NCBI GenBank assembly: GCA_013154235.1
Contig: JAADCV010000019.1
Location: 1 to 57,025 of the forward strand
Length of the DNA stretch: 57,025 bases
Direction: 5' to 3'
Source: Thermoproteota archaeon
GTDB taxonomy: Archaea > Thermoproteota > Thermoprotei_A > Sulfolobales > Ignisphaeraceae
Part shown: positions 1 through 56,476 of the stretch, piece after piece
How positions within the stretch are numbered: the stretch's first letter is position 1
How the letters are laid out: every line of letters begins with the position of its first letter
Position numbers and translations under genes: made by a program
Notes under the pieces: model-generated
Databases searched by the model: none
What the model was told of the DNA's origin: nothing
What the model saw: only the letters and a program-made list of their open reading frames with translations

Positions 1-1
1 G

Positions 2-523
2 TTCATGGTTATAGCTACCCAGAACCCCATAGAGATGGAGGGAACATTCCCACTACCAGAAGCACAACTAGACAGATTCCTAGCAAAGATAATTACCGGG
101 TACCCAAGCCCCAAAGGATTTCGGGAGCTTCTTCGCAATGCTGACGCGATAGAGCAGGGTATCGAGTCTCTAAGACCCGTTGTATCCAGAGACGAGGTGC
201 TGCAAGCAATCAGCGATGCAAAGAAGGTGCGAGCTGACGATAGCATCATAGACTACATAGCGTCTATTGTTGAGGAAACCCGTAACCATCCAGCAGTAAA
301 GCTAGGTGGCTCCCCTCGTGCTGGAATAGCTATCCTTAGACTCTCTCGCTCATGGGCTTACCTAAGCGGCCGCAACTACATAATTCCAGACGATGTCAAG
401 GCTGTAGCTAAGCCAGCTCTCATACATAGGATAATACTCAAGCCCGAGTACGAGATCGAGGGGATTACTGCCGAGAGGGTTGTCGAAGATGTTCTTAAGA
501 GGGTCCCGGTGCCTAAGCCATGA
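2..523 (+). CDS. MoxR-family AAA+ ATPase, C-terminal part (cut by window edge)
   Basis: Only the last ~174 residues are present; the reading frame enters from the left edge, so the first ATG at 5 is internal. The sensor-1 strand (VIATQNP) is followed by the MoxR signature [13 protein letters not shown] with the arginine-finger region, and the sensor-2 segment GSPRAG precedes a C-terminal helical lid. MoxR ATPases act as chaperones that help assemble or activate partners, typically VWA/DUF58 proteins. Here the gene heads an operon that ends in a DUF58 gene, and its stop overlaps the next start (ATGA). The Walker A and B motifs lie upstream of the window. Confidence 0.95.
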
Positions 524-24954: not shown

Positions 24955-25060
<106 letters not shown>

Positions 25061-48571: not shown

Positions 48572-48761
48572 CTATCCCAATATCTCTAGCTACTATAGAG
48601 ACAATATAAGCTAGCTGCTAACTGGCCAAGGATGGAGACGCCTAATAAACAGCTAAGTGAGCTAGCTACACCGCAAGTATCAGAGCTATCGTACTTGATC
48701 ACTTCATCATTGAGAAGCTAACTTGTTGCACAGTATGAGACTCCAAGAGTATGAGGAGCTG

Positions 48762-48808
48762 TGGCGGGCCCGCGGGGATTTGAACCCCGGACCACCGGCT
48801 TAGAAGGC
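48762..48808 (-). repeat. 3' half of tRNA-Arg(TCT), attachment-site remnant
   Basis: 47 bases identical in form to the 3' part of an archaeal tRNA-Arg(TCT): last two bases of the 5' anticodon stem, loop CTTCTAA, GCCGG, GTGGT, T arm CGGGGTTCAAATCCCCG, acceptor CGGGCCC, G and CCA. Upstream of 48808 the pairing partner is lost, so no tRNA can fold. It lies next to a tyrosine recombinase gene, as expected for an att site made by integration into tRNA-Arg. A split-tRNA half is a less likely reading. Confidence 0.88.
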
Positions 48809-48902: not shown

Positions 48903-50165
48903 CTATGGAAGAAGCCCTAGCTCGCGGATCCTCTCTACGACCTTCGGATATTCTCTATCTGCACGCGTTAGCAAGTCTCCGTAGCGTGCTTCCGAGATGC
49001 GCAGCTCTCCAAACCTGCTCTGGATGAATCTAGCGACGTCCTTATCGCTAACAACCTGTACCAGGATCCTCCAGTTCACCTTCCTCAGGTACTTAGGGCG
49101 TAGCAAGTTATGCCTAGCCGCGTACTTCGATACCTGGTCCCGCTTGATATCCACGCCTCGGCACCTCTCCAAGAGCTCTAGGGTCTCCCTCGAGAACCAT
49201 ATCCATTCACACGGCTTCTGCCCACCCCGAATCCCAACAAAGTACCTACAGTGCCTCTCGAAGCACACTAAGCGCTTCGTAACCACATCGATTTCGCGGA
49301 GCTCAACAACCTCGCTAGGATTGAACGTTTTGAGAACTCGTATTGCATGTGAGAGCCTTGCACCGCTCTCTAGCATCAACCTGTACAGAGCATAGTACTT
49401 CTCATGATGCTCTTTCAAGTAGATCATAGTCTTCCTAACGTCCTCTAGCTCTATCCTGTAAGGCCTAATATCAAGCCTGTAGCTACGACTGGGCACAACT
49501 TCCATCAACCAGCCGAATGTCTCGGGAGGAATCCTGCGCTTGTAGTACAGGTACTGTATGTAATGTCGAAACACATTCCTCAGCCATCGGTTCGGATGAC
49601 TAACTACATACTCGACGAGTTCTTCGCTAAGGGTCCTGCCTTCGAGATGTTCTCTAAAGAGGTTTCGATAGTAATTCAGGGTCTCCTCGGTAAGCACCTT
49701 TCTACGCTTCTTACGCTCTCTCAGGAAATGCTCAAAGTCTTCTGTCCAGCGAAACTCTACATGGGCAAGCGCTAAACCAAGCATCTTTCGTAGATCCTCG
49801 CGAAAGTTCTGCACTACGAACCGCAGAATTGCTTGCTTAAGGTATTCGTCCTGGCTAGCAAGAGCCAAGATCTCTAGCGCTAATCCATAGTCTATCGAGC
49901 CGTCTTCGCGAAGAATGCCCAGCGCTCTAAGTCTATCCCTAGCGGATACAACCTGCTCGAACTCTCGCTGCGTTAGATGCTGCAGAATCTTTAGCAAGAC
50001 GCTATCGGATACACGTACCTTCCTATTCCTTATCCTGCTGTAGGTGCTCCACGAGATCCCTAAGTCACTTGGTTTTAGACCCTTAACCTGGGTTACGTAG
50101 TCGAATAGCCTGTAGCGCTCCTCGTCACCTATCTTCGCTAGGTCTAGCTTCTCGTACCATTCCAC
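48903..50165 (-). CDS. Tyrosine recombinase (element integrase)
   Basis: 420 residues. An N-terminal HTH-like and SAM-like DNA-binding part (about 1-240) precedes the catalytic domain: first arginine in E-S-G-A-R-L-S-H near 270, the K-x-x-W-R-like box P-K-Y-L-R-K-V-N-W-R near 350, and the nucleophile in E-A-R-Y-G-D near 394. It resembles crenarchaeal plasmid/virus integrases. The gene is intact although the element is integrated, so it is not the SSV type that is split on integration. It ends 95 bases from the tRNA remnant. ATG 50165. Confidence 0.9.
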   Translation of the reverse strand: MEWYEKLDLAKIGDEERYRLFDYVTQVKGLKPSDLGISWSTYSRIRNRKVRVSDSVLLKILQHLTQREFEQVVSARDRLRALGILREDGSIDYGLALEILALASQDEYLKQAILRFVVQNFREDLRKMLGLALAHVEFRWTEDFEHFLRERKKRRKVLTEETLNYYRNLFREHLEGRTLSEELVEYVVSHPNRWLRNVFRHYIQYLYYKRRIPPETFGWLMEVVPSRSYRLDIRPYRIELEDVRKTMIYLKEHHEKYYALYRLMLESGARLSHAIRVLKTFNPSEVVELREIDVVTKRLVCFERHCRYFVGIRGGQKPCEWIWFSRETLELLERCRGVDIKRDQVSKYAARHNLLRPKYLRKVNWRILVQVVSDKDVARFIQSRFGELRISEARYGDLLTRADREYPKVVERIRELGLLP

Positions 50166-50236: not shown

Positions 50237-50782
50237 CTACGGTACTAATGCAAAGCAGTTCTCCCTGAGTTCGTAGACTAGTCCTCTGCTCCTCAGCTCG
50301 GTAAGTAGTTTTCTCGCAGCCTCCTCACCTATACCCCGTCTCTTAGCTCGCTCGAGGATCTTCGTGAGCTGCGCGCATTCCTCTTCGAGCGCGAGGTCTA
50401 CCACTACGAAGCATAGCACCCTCTTACGCTCATCCTCGAGTCTACGGCACACAGCGTTCGGATTGCTTAGCGGTAGCCCTAGGCTCCTGAGGAACTCGGT
50501 AAGCTCTCGATAGGCCTCTGGGAGAGTGGCGATGTCTCCCTGGAACGCTACGCAGATCTCTAGGAAGGGGAAGTGAGGGTCATCCGCGTGGTAAGTCACG
50601 AATACGTCGGTGCTAGGGATGCGTACCAGGGCATCTATGTGCTTCTCCCTAAAGGACACGTCTACGCCGTACCCCTTCTCCTCGACTCTCTTCAGCATCG
50701 ATAGCAGCCTCATCACTGTACTCACGGAGTTCCTTCCGGACACCGAGTAGGTTAAGCATAGAGTGTTTGGAGCTAGCATCAT
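50237..50782 (-). CDS. Hypothetical protein with possible C-terminal winged helix
   Basis: About 181 residues from ATG 50782, whose ATGA overlaps the previous stop; an upstream GTG (50797) is possible. The last ~40 residues (R-R-G-I-G-E-E-A-A-R-K-L-L-T-E-L-R-S-R-G-L-V-Y-E-L) resemble a winged helix; the first 120 form an alpha/beta domain with no recognised family. Last gene before the integrase on the same strand. Confidence 0.6.
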   Translation of the reverse strand: MMLAPNTLCLTYSVSGRNSVSTVMRLLSMLKRVEEKGYGVDVSFREKHIDALVRIPSTDVFVTYHADDPHFPFLEICVAFQGDIATLPEAYRELTEFLRSLGLPLSNPNAVCRRLEDERKRVLCFVVVDLALEEECAQLTKILERAKRRGIGEEAARKLLTELRSRGLVYELRENCFALVP

Positions 50783-51507
50783 CGTGCACACCCGCACCTC
50801 TCGACTACCTTCCTAGGGACTAGGTACTTCAGCGCTGTGCCTAGGTGATGGAGTAGCCGGCACAGTAGCAGGTCGTCTAGCCTCGCCTTGTAGTAGACTT
50901 TGGACACGAAGATTATGTCAGCGTGTCCGAGCCTCTCGAGCGCCTCCACCACCTCGTCTAGCTCTAGCTCTACCCCGTAGCGGTGCCTGATCATGTTCCT
51001 AACGATTCTCCCCAGACCCTCGCTCGGTGGCCACGATATGTATCCCTCGCTCCTAGGGTTAGCGCTCCTCTTCTCGAAGTATACCTCAGCAAATAGCCTC
51101 ACGACCAACCTCTCAGCATCGCTCATCTCCTCGCGGAACTTCTCTCGATACAGCTCCTCAGCTTCCCTCAGAACCGCCTCTACGAACCTTCGCTTCGTGA
51201 TCTTCCCCCTAAGCCTCTCCTCAACTAGGCTAAGACCGTACTCGACAGCTCTCCTAAGCCTCTCGGCTACGGAGTACCGGTTCCTACCATCCATGGTCTT
51301 CCTAACCACCACAACACCCTTCTCGATGTATGGCTTCAGGTAGCAGTACACGTGCTTCGATAGAATACCCACAGCCTCAGCGAGATCCCTAGCGAGGACC
51401 TCTCCCTTCCTAAGCATTAGCCACAGCATCTCAGCAACTCTTATAGACCTGGGGACGGGTATTGGAGAGCTCGACCCGACTCCCATCTCTGCACCCATCC
51501 TCTCCAC
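50779..51507 (-). CDS. Winged-helix DNA-binding protein
   Basis: 242 residues (GTG 51507, or ATG 51498 behind GGGGTGGAGAGG). HTH at about 25-80: E-V-L-A-R-D-L-A-E-A-V-G-I-L-S-K-H-V-Y-C-Y-L, with a basic wing R-K-T-M-D-G-R-N-R-Y. The rest is helical with no known domain and a C-terminal C-G-C. Probably an element-encoded regulator. Confidence 0.7.
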   Translation of the reverse strand: MERMGAEMGVGSSSPIPVPRSIRVAEMLWLMLRKGEVLARDLAEAVGILSKHVYCYLKPYIEKGVVVVRKTMDGRNRYSVAERLRRAVEYGLSLVEERLRGKITKRRFVEAVLREAEELYREKFREEMSDAERLVVRLFAEVYFEKRSANPRSEGYISWPPSEGLGRIVRNMIRHRYGVELELDEVVEALERLGHADIIFVSKVYYKARLDDLLLCRLLHHLGTALKYLVPRKVVERCGCAR

Positions 51508-51510
51508 CCC

Positions 51511-52533
51511 TCACCTCAATGCCTTCTCGAGGTGGTTCATGTATAGAAGAAAGTAGAGGATCCTCTCGTGCTCGTTTTTACACGACCATCCGTGGGAGGT
51601 TCTTGGGAAGGTCCACGCTGTCGAATCCCAGCTATCGTTAGGTAGAAGCAGCTTTTCCTGAATCAACTTCTTCGCTCCCGATAGGGAGGGGCCGAAGATG
51701 TGGAACGAGCATTCCCTACAGGCTTCCCTAGCCTTCCTAACGGTTTCCGCTATGATCGTAGCGGCTCTCGACGTGCATACGTTGGCTATGGCTATTCTGA
51801 AGCGCTTGTGCAACCCTAGCTGCTTCAGGATTTCGACGCTGTAGAAGATGCTCTCAGGAACATCTTCATAGCCCTGCGCTGGGATAAGCCACGGTATAGA
51901 TCTATCGCTATCCACTACCTGCAGGATGTTACTTAGGGTTCTATCGATATTCGTTACATAGTCACAGCACTCCTCGGTCCATAGAGCGTGTCTACGCCCC
52001 CACGTCCTCGAGTAGTCATCGCAGTAATCAGGAATGACGATCTCGTACGCGAAGCCATGTTCTCTAGACAACGACTTTAGGTAGTCGATAGCGTTCCAAA
52101 ACGCGTTCCAGTAATCATCACCGTAATCGCGGTTGATCGGAAGCTTATCGATAGACTTCTTCCACACCTTATCGACAGCAGCATCGAGGATAACGCTCTC
52201 GATCCTAGCACCTACCTCCCTATACCTATCGATGTAAGTGGCGAGAACATCGACGTTGAAGACGTTCACTAGGATCCAGGGCCAGGGAACGACAGCCTCT
52301 CTAGCGATTGGAGGTAGGGTGTAGAACCTAACGCCATACCTCTTTAGAAGAGCATATGCTTTCAGAACGCTATGTGCATACTCATCGAAGCTGATAAGAC
52401 CTGTAACCTCGAGCCAGCTGCGATAACCGTGGTACCCCACGTTTCTTAGCCAGTAGCTCAGCTGCCCTACCGAGACCCCGAGCTCTCTCGATAGAGACCT
52501 TAGCGAAGGTGTTTGAACAGCGAAGGTCTTCAG
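51511..52533 (-). CDS. DpdA/TGT-like TIM-barrel protein with N-terminal HTH, probable CTG start
   Basis: Up to 340 residues. The first standard start in frame is GTG 52440, but the 31 codons above it encode S-L-S-R-E-L-G-V-S-V-G-Q-L-S-Y-W-L-R-N, a textbook helix-turn-helix continuing into G-Y-H-G-Y-R-S-W. The segment begins at a CTG forming CTGA with the previous stop. The body carries, in the order found in tRNA-guanine transglycosylases, V-I-L-D-A-A (near 113), V-I-P-D-Y-C-D, I-P-A-Q-G-Y-E, R-I-A-I-A-N-V-C, F-H-I-F-G-P-S and D-S-W-D-S-T-A-W. The DpdA branch inserts 7-deazaguanines into DNA. Assignment rests on motif order only. Confidence 0.55.
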   Translation of the reverse strand: MKTFAVQTPSLRSLSRELGVSVGQLSYWLRNVGYHGYRSWLEVTGLISFDEYAHSVLKAYALLKRYGVRFYTLPPIAREAVVPWPWILVNVFNVDVLATYIDRYREVGARIESVILDAAVDKVWKKSIDKLPINRDYGDDYWNAFWNAIDYLKSLSREHGFAYEIVIPDYCDDYSRTWGRRHALWTEECCDYVTNIDRTLSNILQVVDSDRSIPWLIPAQGYEDVPESIFYSVEILKQLGLHKRFRIAIANVCTSRAATIIAETVRKAREACRECSFHIFGPSLSGAKKLIQEKLLLPNDSWDSTAWTFPRTSHGWSCKNEHERILYFLLYMNHLEKALR

Positions 52534-52772
52534 CGTTCAATCACCTTGCGCTTGCAGCATTTCTTCGGATGCAGCGGCACGACGATGATTACATCGATGC
52601 AGATTCCGTCTTCGCTAAGCTTCCTCCAAATGTCGTTTAGTTGAACTGGTAAGTAAACTTTGTATCGTTTTCCACGTCGTTCTGCAACAACCGCATGTTT
52701 TTTAACGATGAACGGTATTCCGTTTGCTAATATCCTGGCGAGCTCCTCGACGATACCTATCACCCTACTCAA
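52530..52772 (-). CDS. Hypothetical small protein
   Basis: 80 residues from TTG 52772. A helix, then strands (V-A-E-R-R-G-K-R-Y-K-V-Y-L-P-V-Q-L-N-D-I-W) and a basic Cys-containing tail (P-K-K-C-C-K-R-K). No family recognised. The stop overlaps the CTG start proposed for the TGT-like gene. Confidence 0.6.
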   Translation of the reverse strand: MSRVIGIVEELARILANGIPFIVKKHAVVAERRGKRYKVYLPVQLNDIWRKLSEDGICIDVIIVVPLHPKKCCKRKVIER

Positions 52773-52778
52773 CGAGAA

Positions 52779-53075
52779 TCACCTCGAGAAGATGACTTCC
52801 TCGATGATCCTCCTAGCCTCGTTCGAGGAACGGCTCTTTGTGCAAGTCCTAGGCTCTGGGAGGTAGCTCGATAACTTCGACTCTATCCTTATCAACACCT
52901 CCTCGAGAAGCTCTCTAGCCTTCCTAAGCTCTTCGTATAGCTCATCGTCTGTTCCACGCAGGTACGTAGCAGCGTATCCTAGGCACAGGTTGGCGGATCT
53001 CAGCATCGCTCGAGCTGACTGAAGGTCGTAGAGCTCGTTATCGCTGAAGCGTTTCCTCACGCTCATTTTAGCCAC
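52779..53075 (-). CDS. Helical protein, paralogue of the C-terminus of 53287-53940
   Basis: 98 residues, nearly all helix. Residues ~11-72 line up with the tail of the zinc-finger protein two genes upstream: E-L-Y-D-L-Q-S-A versus E-L-H-D-L-Q-L-A, then E-L-L-E-E-V-L-I-R-I-E-S versus E-L-L-E-E-L-L-R-R-I-D-S, ending L-S-x-x-L-P. So the module exists alone and fused to an HTH/zinc finger. Function unknown; a dimerisation module is plausible. The start overlaps the previous gene by 13 bases. Confidence 0.65.
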   Translation of the reverse strand: MAKMSVRKRFSDNELYDLQSARAMLRSANLCLGYAATYLRGTDDELYEELRKARELLEEVLIRIESKLSSYLPEPRTCTKSRSSNEARRIIEEVIFSR

Positions 53076-53290
53076 CTCAGCATGGTCTCGGTGATGGGCT
53101 TGAAGCGGCTACAGGTACCGACAAAGTACGTAATGGGCTTGTTCCATGCTTTGCACCATCCCTTGATCCTCCTCGGTTCGTAACCCCACTCCTCAACCGC
53201 TTTGCGCAGCAGGTCATCGCTCATAGCATCCCTAGGAACGAACCAGACGCACCTCCTGCAATCAGCCTCCCTAGTCACCATGCTCGTCAC
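53063..53290 (-). CDS. Small zinc-binding-like protein
   Basis: 75 residues with four cysteines, C-R-R-C near the N-terminus, G-W-C-K and G-T-C-S-R-F towards the C-terminus, spaced as a Cys4 zinc site. GTG 53290 overlaps the upstream stop (GTGA). Typical of crenarchaeal plasmids and viruses; function unknown. Confidence 0.65.
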   Translation of the reverse strand: MTSMVTREADCRRCVWFVPRDAMSDDLLRKAVEEWGYEPRRIKGWCKAWNKPITYFVGTCSRFKPITETMLRWLK

Positions 53291-53940
53291 CTCGATGGAA
53301 GCTCAACGGGAAGAAACTGGCTGAGTATCGAGTCTATTCTTCGTAGAAGCTCCTCGAGAAGCTCGTTAACTCGCTCCACCTCGCTACGTAGCTCGGTTCG
53401 GCTTAGGTATGCGATGGCGCTATGCACACGGTTAAGCGCTGCGCGGATATGTGTATGGGCTAGCTGCAAGTCGTGGAGCTCATCCAGGTTCTTCTCTAGG
53501 TGCTGCCGCCTGCAGCACTTCTTCAGGATCCCGATGATTCGATCCACGTGCTCCTCGACGACGTCTCTATGCATCGCGTGGATATGTGTGGTTATCGCGG
53601 TGCTGTCGAGGGTGAACGTGCGTTTGCATAGTGTGCACAGGGCGTAGCCATCCCTGGGCTCTATGATGGGCTTCACGAATCGCAGCACTAGGGGGGCTAG
53701 GTACTGGATGTATAGCCTAGCTCTGGATGCTCTTGCTGGACCTGGAACCTTCCTGAGGATCCTCTGCACCAATCCCCTCAGCTGATGCTTGCTGAGCCCG
53801 TAGCTCCTAGCGAGCTCAGCCACGCTCTCGCGACCGTCATCAACGAAGTAGGCGTGTAGAGCCTCCACAACGTTGCTCCTACCGCTGAGCTGCAGCGTAA
53901 CTAGGTACTCGAGAACCTCCCTAAGCCCCATGCGCATCAC
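53287..53940 (-). CDS. HTH / C2H2 zinc-finger protein with helical tail
   Basis: 217 residues in three parts: an HTH (about 35-60, S-V-A-E-L-A-R-S-Y-G-L-S-K-H-Q-L-R-G-L-V), a C2H2-like finger C-T-L-C-K-R-T-F-T-L ending H-I-H-A-M-H (about 101-123), and a ~65-residue helical module shared with the protein at 52779-53075. Likely a DNA-binding protein of the element. Confidence 0.72.
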   Translation of the reverse strand: MMRMGLREVLEYLVTLQLSGRSNVVEALHAYFVDDGRESVAELARSYGLSKHQLRGLVQRILRKVPGPARASRARLYIQYLAPLVLRFVKPIIEPRDGYALCTLCKRTFTLDSTAITTHIHAMHRDVVEEHVDRIIGILKKCCRRQHLEKNLDELHDLQLAHTHIRAALNRVHSAIAYLSRTELRSEVERVNELLEELLRRIDSILSQFLPVELPSR

Positions 53941-55048: not shown

Positions 55049-55330
55049 GTGCCTAGAGAGTGGTGGCACGCACCCATAGGCCACATCATACGCGCGTTAC
55101 GAACCCTCTACCGCGCTGAACGCGAAGGCCGCGAACTCAGCTTCACCGAACTCATCGAGGAATCCAGGATACCCGAAACAACGTTCTACAGAACCATCAA
55201 GCGAGCACTCATCGAAGGAGGCTTCATAACCATCGAGACCAACCCCCGAGAAAGAGTCATGGTAATCAAACTCACCGAGAAAGGAAGGAAGCTCGCTCAA
55301 TGCCTAGAAGAGGCAGGAATAGAAGTTTAA
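55049..55330 (+). CDS. Winged-helix protein, first of a tandem pair
   Basis: 93 residues, GTG 55049. Winged helix with I-P-E-T-T-F-Y-R-T-I-K-R-A-L-I-E-G-G as recognition region and N-P-R-E-R-V-M-V-I-K-L-T as wing. The next gene is a clear paralogue. Codons here mostly end in C or A, whereas the second copy looks more A/T-rich, suggesting different histories despite the tandem arrangement. Confidence 0.8.
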   Translation: MPREWWHAPIGHIIRALRTLYRAEREGRELSFTELIEESRIPETTFYRTIKRALIEGGFITIETNPRERVMVIKLTEKGRKLAQCLEEAGIEV

Positions 55331-55343
55331 TGAGGCTGAAAGA

Positions 55344-55610
55344 TTGGTGATAGGAAAACGGAAAGCAAGCTTTAGTCACGTAGTTAAAGCTTTGCTAACA
55401 TTGCTAAAGGCTGAGAAAGAGATGAGAGAATTCCTAAAAGTATCGGGAATACCGTCCTCAACCTTCTACACGACCATGCGAGACGCACTGATAGAGCTAG
55501 GACTGATAACCATCGAGTCCAACCCGCGAGAGCGAGTAGTCTCGATAAAGCTCACCGATAGGGGTAGGAAGCTTGCTCAATGCCTAGAAGAGCTCGGGAT
55601 AGAGTCATAG
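55344..55610 (+). CDS. Winged-helix protein, second of a tandem pair
   Basis: 88 residues from TTG 55344 (GTG 55347 next). S-T-F-Y-T-T-M-R-D-A-L-I-E-L-G-L-I-T-I-E-S-N-P-R-E-R-V is over half identical to the upstream copy, with the tail L-A-Q-C-L-E-E nearly invariant in DNA as well. Separated by 13 bases; probably co-transcribed. Small size suggests they bind as dimers, possibly heterodimers. Confidence 0.8.
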   Translation: MVIGKRKASFSHVVKALLTLLKAEKEMREFLKVSGIPSSTFYTTMRDALIELGLITIESNPRERVVSIKLTDRGRKLAQCLEELGIES

Positions 55611-55635: not shown

Positions 55636-56476
55636 GTGAGCATGCCCCGGGTTTACTCGGGGCGTGATTGTGGTAGGTTTATCGAGCCCTTGATTAGGAA
55701 TGCTAGGCGTAGGCTATGGATAGTCTCTCCATATATATCGAGGGAATACGCTGAGATCCTTGTTGAGAAGGCTCGCCAAGGTGTTGATGTTAGGGTAGTT
55801 ACGTGCGATGTTGAGGAGTCTCGCGATGCGATAAGGGTTCTTAGGCTCGGGATGGGGAAGCTCCTAGCTCTTCTAGGTGTTGCAACTCTAGCGGTGTTCA
55901 CGCTTGCTAACATTATGCATTTCGCGGGGATGAAGGGGGGTCGATTCCGCTACGCTTGCCATCTCGGGGCTCCTAGCAATTGTATGCAACCTGCTTCTAC
56001 TCATTCTGAGCCCGCGGCTATGGCTAGCCATGCTATGCGCTGCTGTAGCTATTGCCATAGCTCTATCTAGCTACTTCAAGGCTCCACTACTTCGCCTACT
56101 GCTAAATACAGTGATAATATATCAGGGGTATGCGGGTGCCGCAGCCCTAATCGCCCTATCTATGCGTAGGTCTCGCATAGCGAAGCTCGCTGCGTATCCA
56201 AGCGCTTCTCCAAAGGTGGTATCTAGGACGATACCTATATCCTCAACCGTTGGCTACAGCACAACGTATCAACCGCCTAGACCCCAGCTAAAGATCGTAC
56301 CTCCGGAGAGAATGATCCATAGCAAGATCTACATAGGGGACGATACCGCGATCGTGGGTAGCGCAAACCTTACGAAAGCGGGGCTCTGGCGCAACTACGA
56401 AACCATAACAATCTTCGAGGGGGACGAGGTGAAGGAGATAGAAAAGATGTTTCTAGAGATATGGAGCGCAGCGTGA
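55636..56476 (+). pseudogene. PLD-family membrane protein split by a frameshift in a G6 run
   Basis: Two overlapping frames make one protein. Frame one (from GTG 55636 or ATG 55642) begins with a PLD-like N-terminus (R-R-R-L-W-I-V-S-P-Y-I-S) and enters a membrane helix; after A-A-G-G-G-G-G-G (55933-55940) it turns into nonsense. Removing one G joins it to the second frame: more membrane helices and the phospholipase D motif I-H-S-K-I-Y-I-G-D-D ... G-S-A-N-L (H-x-K-x4-D). The repaired product is about 279 residues with one HKD motif. Causes may be mutation, sequencing error or programmed slippage. Confidence 0.75.

Follow-up and report, generated by a model that had tools for sequence, protein, structure and literature searches.

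A putative DpdA-like transglycosylase with an N-terminal HTH on a crenarchaeal integrative element

Does an integrative element of a hyperthermophilic crenarchaeon carry an enzyme that exchanges bases in DNA, and what would a DNA-binding head contribute to such an enzyme? The question is raised by a gene on a 57,025-nucleotide contig of a member of the Ignisphaeraceae (assembly GCA_013154235.1, contig JAADCV010000019.1), the whole of which was analyzed and is referred to here as the window. A sequence-only reading had recognized in its product the motifs of the tRNA-guanine transglycosylases (TGTs) behind an N-terminal HTH, and had proposed an enzyme akin to DpdA that would draw on the preQ0 of its host.

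The gene is present as a single open frame, as that reading had it, and lies on the minus strand, which had been left unstated (Table 1). Its stop is at 51511 and its first codon is a CTG, the earliest in-frame ATG, GTG, or TTG being the GTG at 52440, downstream of the HTH. The CTG overlaps the stop of the upstream gene, which ends in CGC TGA, as CTGA, and a Shine-Dalgarno-like GGTGAT stands six bases ahead of it. The alignment with the nearest relative, from an Acidilobaceae MAG (55% identical), begins at VQTPSLR, and dN/dS between the two genes is ~0.25 over the whole gene, ~0.5 over residues 1–47, and ~0.2 over the remainder. Because of the CTGA overlap, the GGTGAT site, and an HTH segment that aligns to relatives, CTG 52533 is a credible true start, a start other than ATG, GTG, or TTG remaining a prediction from sequence. 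Initiation at GTG 52440 would remove the HTH; the conservation of the upstream HTH, the Shine-Dalgarno-like site, and the CTGA overlap rule against it.

Table 1. Coordinates of the candidate transglycosylase gene, its domains, and accompanying features of the element
Feature	Coordinates	Strand	Basis
Attachment site: 49-bp 3′ part of tRNA-Arg(TCT)	48760..48808	minus	100% identical to contig C84 copy
Archaeal phage-type integrase with N-terminal HTH	48903..50165	minus	PF16795 E 1e-27; phrog_5127 E 5e-22
Downstream gene, 242 aa, N-terminal winged HTH	50779..51507	minus	TrmB-like E 9e-4
HTH-TGT fusion protein (DpdA-like), 340 aa	51511..52533	minus	CTG start 52533; family alignments; AF2; Foldseek
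TGT-type (beta/alpha)8 barrel, residues ~70–340	51511..52325	minus	AF2 strands; invariant residues
N-terminal HTH region, ~residues 10–46	52397..52506	minus	AF2 helices; HTH_5 match of relative L003
Upstream gene, 80 aa, 4-nt overlap with TGT-like gene	52530..52772	minus	element homologues in G225 (L050), G181 (L062)

The surroundings of the gene agree with the crenarchaeal integrative element that had been supposed, as they comprise an integrase and a repeat of a tRNA 3′ part that is matched by the intact tRNA-Arg(TCT) elsewhere in this genome, on contig C84. A close homologue of the integrase lies beside tRNA-Arg(GCG) on the contig of genome G225 that bears a TGT-like gene. The window element runs off the contig end, and its far end is unassembled. 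The TGT-like genes of G225 and G056 are likewise followed by homologues of the downstream winged-HTH gene of the window. Other genes of the stretch include two tandem paralogous winged-HTH genes (55049–55610; 88–93 aa), three similar ones standing in a row at 5.5–6.3 kb of locus L057, and two genes (52779–53075 and 53287–53940) whose products are homologous in their C-terminal segments (phmmer E 1e-7), the longer product with an HTH/zinc-finger-like front. A PLD-type nuclease (55636–56476) is spread over two frames that overlap, its halves separated by a hydrophobic insertion, and may be a broken gene, a frameshift error, or two genes; its second half, ORF 56030–56473, matches DrmC (E 2e-9), RE_NgoFVII (E 2e-7), and DpdK (E 2e-6). 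Apart from these DrmC and DpdK matches, searches of the window neighbors with Pfam, PHROGs, and PADLOC found no DpdB, DpdC, or restriction genes. Elsewhere in the window, a 102-nt tRNA on the minus strand (24958–25059), seen by Rfam and missed by ARAGORN, likely contains an intron.

Taken alone, the protein obtained no family from Pfam, PHROGs, NCBIfam, PADLOC, or PDB sequences, and only the profiles of its relatives gave one. It matched neither of the DpdA models PF23859 and NF041059 and likewise failed to reach the Pfam TGT cut-off; the best family member scored E 0.002 against NF041059, below the DpdA cut-off. A tblastn search of the phage collection returned nothing, as did scans of viral and genome contigs with the single protein. 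The PDB sequence matches of the single protein (peptidylprolyl isomerase and myosin; E 0.05 or worse) and of the family profiles (E 0.2 or worse) were set aside as chance.

Profile–profile comparison by hhalign, with a query profile of 11 sequences, found the closest match in short archaeal DpdA-like proteins (probability 97.7, E 1.6e-12), followed by crenarchaeal ArcTGT (probability 93.6, E 2e-7), mycophage DpdA (probability 92.8, E 4e-7), and the DpdA of phage 9g (E 9e-4); the control, a sugar-phosphate-isomerase-like protein of the window with an unrelated TIM barrel, gave E 0.25. SIRV2 gp13 could be aligned only weakly (E 0.006) and was dismissed as a close relative. A bridge is provided by the protein of L021, which the family profile matches at E 1e-14 and the Pfam DpdA model PF23859 at 47.8 bits. 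The family profile also picks up authentic 500-aa TgtA and short DpdA-like proteins in the same genomes, and it scored 13 of 13 real ArcTGT/DpdA-like proteins above all 5,213 shuffled or reversed copies, the margin being narrow for the weakest real protein (8.9 bits, against 8.8 for the best shuffled or reversed copy). The TGT/DpdA-like identity first proposed from motifs is thus upheld by profile comparison, and we judge TGT-superfamily chemistry almost certain for this protein.

The structural model points the same way. Built by AF2 from an alignment of 11 sequences (pLDDT 86.6, pTM 0.89), it contains eight strands (69–72, 86–90, 113–117, 162–166, 215–219, 246–249, 277–279, and 301–303) alternating with helices. 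Foldseek against the PDB placed TGTs at ranks 1–4, all with probability 1.0 and E 7.6e-5 to 6.5e-4, the mouse and Zymomonas enzymes at the top, and the best viral structure match was a mycobacteriophage protein named queuine tRNA-ribosyltransferase. The TM-scores to TGT are modest (0.4–0.47) and other TIM barrels turn up at E ~1e-3; therefore the fold call rests on the sequence profile, the motif placement, and the Foldseek ranking together.

The active sites of TIM barrels lie at the C-terminal ends of their strands. In the model D117, A248, H278, and D303 occupy such ends, Q220 follows just after one, and D169 stands three residues beyond another. Across a 17-sequence alignment with a mean column identity of 28%, P85, D117, Y137, D169, N195, T199, Q220, H278, G281, S301, and D303 are invariant; among D117, D169, Q220, H278, G281, and D303, only G281 is not at or just after a strand end. 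The six motifs that had been read from the sequence occur in the claimed order (VILD 114–117, IPD 167–169, PAQG 218–221, IAIA 246–249, HIFG 278–281, and WDSTAW 302–307). By hhalign, D169 aligns with the aspartate of LDxPT in ArcTGT, Q220 with its QG, H278–G281 with HLFG, and D303 with FDSAS, and D117 aligns with the aspartate of LDSGAYH in the short DpdA-like proteins. H278 also aligns with a conserved DpdA histidine (position 196 of 9g), which does not single out DpdA because ArcTGT has a histidine there too. The two active-site aspartates that had been anticipated are thereby located as D117 and D303, each invariant among the 17 relatives and matched to an ArcTGT or DpdA-like position; neither is missing, and no other barrel family without a TGT match emerged. 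Motif order and profile alignments suggest that their counterparts in Z. mobilis TGT are Asp102 and Asp280, the catalytic acid/base and the nucleophile of that enzyme, respectively (PMC6165067).

Among known systems, the protein shares with crenarchaeal ArcTGT/TgtA the fold, the D/D/Q/G/D set, and the HLFG motif; unlike them, it lacks the zinc motif that follows the ArcTGT barrel (CxCxxC..H, absent from all 17 sequences and present as CSCPVC in the host TgtA), stops after the barrel with no C-terminal DUF5591/PUA domains (340 versus ~525 aa), and has gained an HTH. The short archaeal DpdA-like proteins (alignment A4, ~260 aa) carry the same catalytic set without the HTH. The DpdA of phages and archaeal viruses (PF23859, NF041059; 9g, CAjan, the solo mycophage DpdA, and SIRV2 gp13) has in common with it a TGT-type barrel, the motifs DSG-like, PD/LD, QG, G, HxFG, and (F/W)DS, and a solo position on a mobile element with the host pathway as a possible source of preQ0; it differs in having no N-terminal HTH, whereas the window protein falls below the family cut-offs, belongs to a separate, weakly supported group (57/61), and is one of a family found on integrative and conjugative elements. 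The bacterial dpd island, in which DpdB, DpdC, and restriction genes accompany DpdA, likewise contains a TGT-type enzyme predicted to modify DNA, and a DpdK-like PLD nuclease is found on the window element; however, neither DpdB, DpdC, nor any other dpd gene was found there, and the PLD gene is split and non-adjacent.

The HTH itself was recognized through the model and a relative. The N-terminus of the window protein scores only E ~0.1 against HTH families and E 0.003 against the mad1 HTH of PADLOC. AF2 places helices at 11–18, 22–29, and 37–44 in a block of pLDDT 92–96, and the equivalent segment of relative L003 clears the HTH_5 cut-off (E 4e-5), in keeping with the HTH initially reported. 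In the tree, whose deep branches are weak and in which the phage sequences have long branches, the six members with an HTH group together as a single clade (support 99/98), and the fusion was therefore probably gained once. The element-borne group that includes the window protein is separate from ArcTGT, with support of only 57/61 for the group as a whole.

Among 229 genomes of its class, eight besides its own gave a match: a relative in seven and a CRISPR spacer in the eighth. Further relatives came from one IMG/VR contig and from plasmid pTPEN01 of Thermofilum pendens, and a profile search added four more genomes of the phylum, not counting what is probably a copy of pTPEN01. Where the context of a relative can be read, it is mostly an integrative or conjugative element next to a tRNA gene, a plasmid, or a viral contig. 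The G225 relative is near tRNA-Arg(GCG) and the homologous integrase on the same contig, that of G056 near tRNA-Ser, and that of G037 near tRNA-His and a 413-aa ORF that resembles the same integrase type and has no Pfam match; those of G181 (Pyrodictiaceae) and of G173 and G174, from the same GTDB family, are at most 6 kb from tRNA genes. A conjugation-type coupling ATPase is carried by the G181 element, with a similar ORF near the G173 gene, and other relatives occupy MCM- or resolvase-bearing stretches. Because no clear second tRNA 3′ end (att copy) was found in the stretches examined around six relatives, the proximity to tRNA genes is suggestive only. Two TGT-like genes lie 3 kb apart in G404, and the tail of a second one lies upstream in L056. 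A TGT-like protein of another subgroup (L062:5987–7442, minus strand) adjoins a DPPW-motif ORF that weakly matches the methylase mad2.

On the IMG/VR contig (L042), a gene matching the C-5 cytosine DNA methylases (PF00145, E 1.4e-5) ends 2 bp upstream of the TGT-like gene. Upstream of three HTH-fused relatives, adjacent or one to two ORFs off, is a stand-alone DUF5591 gene (E 4e-6 to 2e-5, at the curated cut-off); the domain is also found within the 528–539-aa TgtA ORFs of the same genomes and, among control genomes, matches archaeal ones only. The stand-alone DUF5591 genes tie the loci to archaeosine chemistry and make no choice between DNA and tRNA; as DUF5591 is also part of the tRNA-acting ArcTGT, it counts against settling on DNA alone. 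Four relatives have, downstream of the TGT-like gene, a gene for a 79–89-aa protein, for a 200-aa protein, or for both. The AF2 model of the 200-aa partner (pLDDT 90) has the nuclease EndoMS as its sole Foldseek match below 1e-3 (probability 1.0, E 8e-4); its alignment holds no clear catalytic D...ExK set, and it is absent beside the window gene. In L057, a PP-loop ATPase ORF (1–366, minus strand; SGGKDS), cut by the contig end, overlaps the 3′ end of the TGT-like gene, and its best match is NAD synthase (E 5e-6), not QueC.

No deazaguanine synthesis genes had been noticed on this part of the element, and indeed neither QueC nor TgtA has a match on the window contig. Both are encoded on other contigs of the host (TgtA, 525 aa, E 3e-78; QueC, E 2e-39) and, judged by sequence, are a likely source of preQ0. 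The postulated host pool is to this extent corroborated, whereas QueD was not found in the host assembly, which is 79% complete, and a QueF-like match was marginal. DpdA alone inserts dPreQ0 into plasmid DNA in E. coli, the Salmonella phage 7-11, with DpdA as its only such gene, contains trace dPreQ0, and Mycobacterium phage Orion, with DpdA only and a host without the pathway, has no modified DNA (PMC6884629), a case that speaks against the reading given below; HRTV-29, an archaeal tailed virus with DpdA alone, has been suggested to draw on the preQ0 pathway of its host (PMC8651126). A second, divergent TGT-like ORF of 296 aa, without the N-terminal part of the barrel (PF01702, E 0.008), is present on host contig C20 (L063, 1165–2055).

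The best reading of these data, which we consider moderately likely as a whole, is that of an active DpdA-like transglycosylase, belonging to a tRNA-Arg-integrated crenarchaeal element, that puts host preQ0 into DNA with its HTH as a DNA tether. D303 would attack the glycosidic bond of guanine, D169, Q220, and the backbone near A248 would hold the base, and a 7-deazaguanine would be inserted after activation by D117, the donor being preQ0 from the archaeosine pathway of the host. The N-terminal HTH would dock the enzyme on DNA, such that guanines of the element, or those near HTH sites, would be exchanged, and the DNA so altered may become resistant to, or recognized by, nucleases. From homology we infer catalysis and the use of preQ0; with less support, we infer DNA as substrate, the HTH as tether, and protection as purpose. 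In a more specific version, the HTH would direct the exchange only to guanines near its own binding site, unlike phage DpdA, which replaces guanine generally, and the inserted 7-deazaguanine would serve the element as an epigenetic mark or switch; this version is speculative and rather doubtful.

DNA as the substrate of the window protein is, we believe, probable. Were the enzyme instead an element-borne second archaeosine-type TGT, acting on host or element tRNA with an HTH that only regulates its own gene, then the homology to ArcTGT, the ArcTGT domain DUF5591 standing alone beside three relatives, and the use of tRNA genes as integration sites would fall into place; this is nevertheless unlikely for a 340-aa protein that has neither the zinc motif nor the C-terminal tRNA-binding domains of the 525-aa host TgtA, that resides in a host already possessing TgtA, that branches separately from ArcTGT, and one relative of which neighbors a DNA methylase. 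Quite unlikely, too, is a Dpd-like restriction-modification or defense set in which DNA is marked by the enzyme and an element-encoded nuclease cleaves whatever lacks (or bears) the mark. The DrmC- and DpdK-matching PLD ORF on the same contig and the predicted EndoMS-like partner in four relatives would supply the nuclease, yet the PLD gene, divided between two frames, lies on the opposite strand 3.5 kb off, the 200-aa partner has neither a clear catalytic set nor a counterpart beside the window gene, and no other Dpd genes are seen among the window neighbors.

Two further explanations depart from nucleic acid modification, and we give each very little credence. Cap10 of type IV CBASS is a TGT-family enzyme remodeled for protein–nucleobase conjugation (PMC11996544), and a protein target of this kind could be argued from the place of Cap10 (9ntn), at only E 0.33, second among the PDB sequence matches of the profile, and from the overlap of the L057 relative with an ORF of QueC's superfamily; that ORF is closest to NAD synthase, however, no CBASS gene is seen, and the HTH points to DNA. 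A catalytically dead, regulatory relict serving as a DNA-binding repressor would suit the HTH and the surrounding genes, mostly small HTH proteins; it is hard to reconcile with base-site residues that are invariant in 17 proteins otherwise little alike and with a dN/dS of ~0.25.

Solo DpdA has already been published for crenarchaeal viruses, the Ligamenvirales and Bicaudaviridae, with precedent for the use of host preQ0 (PMC6884629), and TGT fusions or companions with other domains in defense loci were recently reported (PMC12839542). No paper on an HTH-TGT fusion or on an integrative-element clade was found in the open-access literature, a search that leaves most subscription journals outside; the fusion and the element-borne clade appear to be new. 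If the preferred reading, an element-borne DpdA-like enzyme with a DNA tether, is true, then 7-deazaguanine DNA modification is found on integrative and conjugative elements of hyperthermophilic archaea, and not in viruses alone, and a DNA-binding head has been added to a base-swapping enzyme in one clade. Whether a transglycosylase can be steered to chosen DNA sites then becomes a testable question. The window enzyme would also provide a thermostable base from which to develop the writing of modified bases into DNA.

A related archaeon seems to have met this gene family as foreign DNA, which counts in favor of the preferred reading. Genome G133, of the host's GTDB family, carries on contig C8 (~47.5–51 kb; L009/L059) a CRISPR array with at least 42 copies of the repeat GAAACTCCCAAAAGGGAGTAGAAAG. 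One of its spacers (L009, ~1500–1547) translates to DDYSSTWGRKHALWT, equivalent to the region of TGT-like residues 172–186, and matches the TGT-like gene of G053 at 38 of 48 bases, against 29 for the best of 3,000 shuffles; the array of this archaeon would have sampled the family as foreign.
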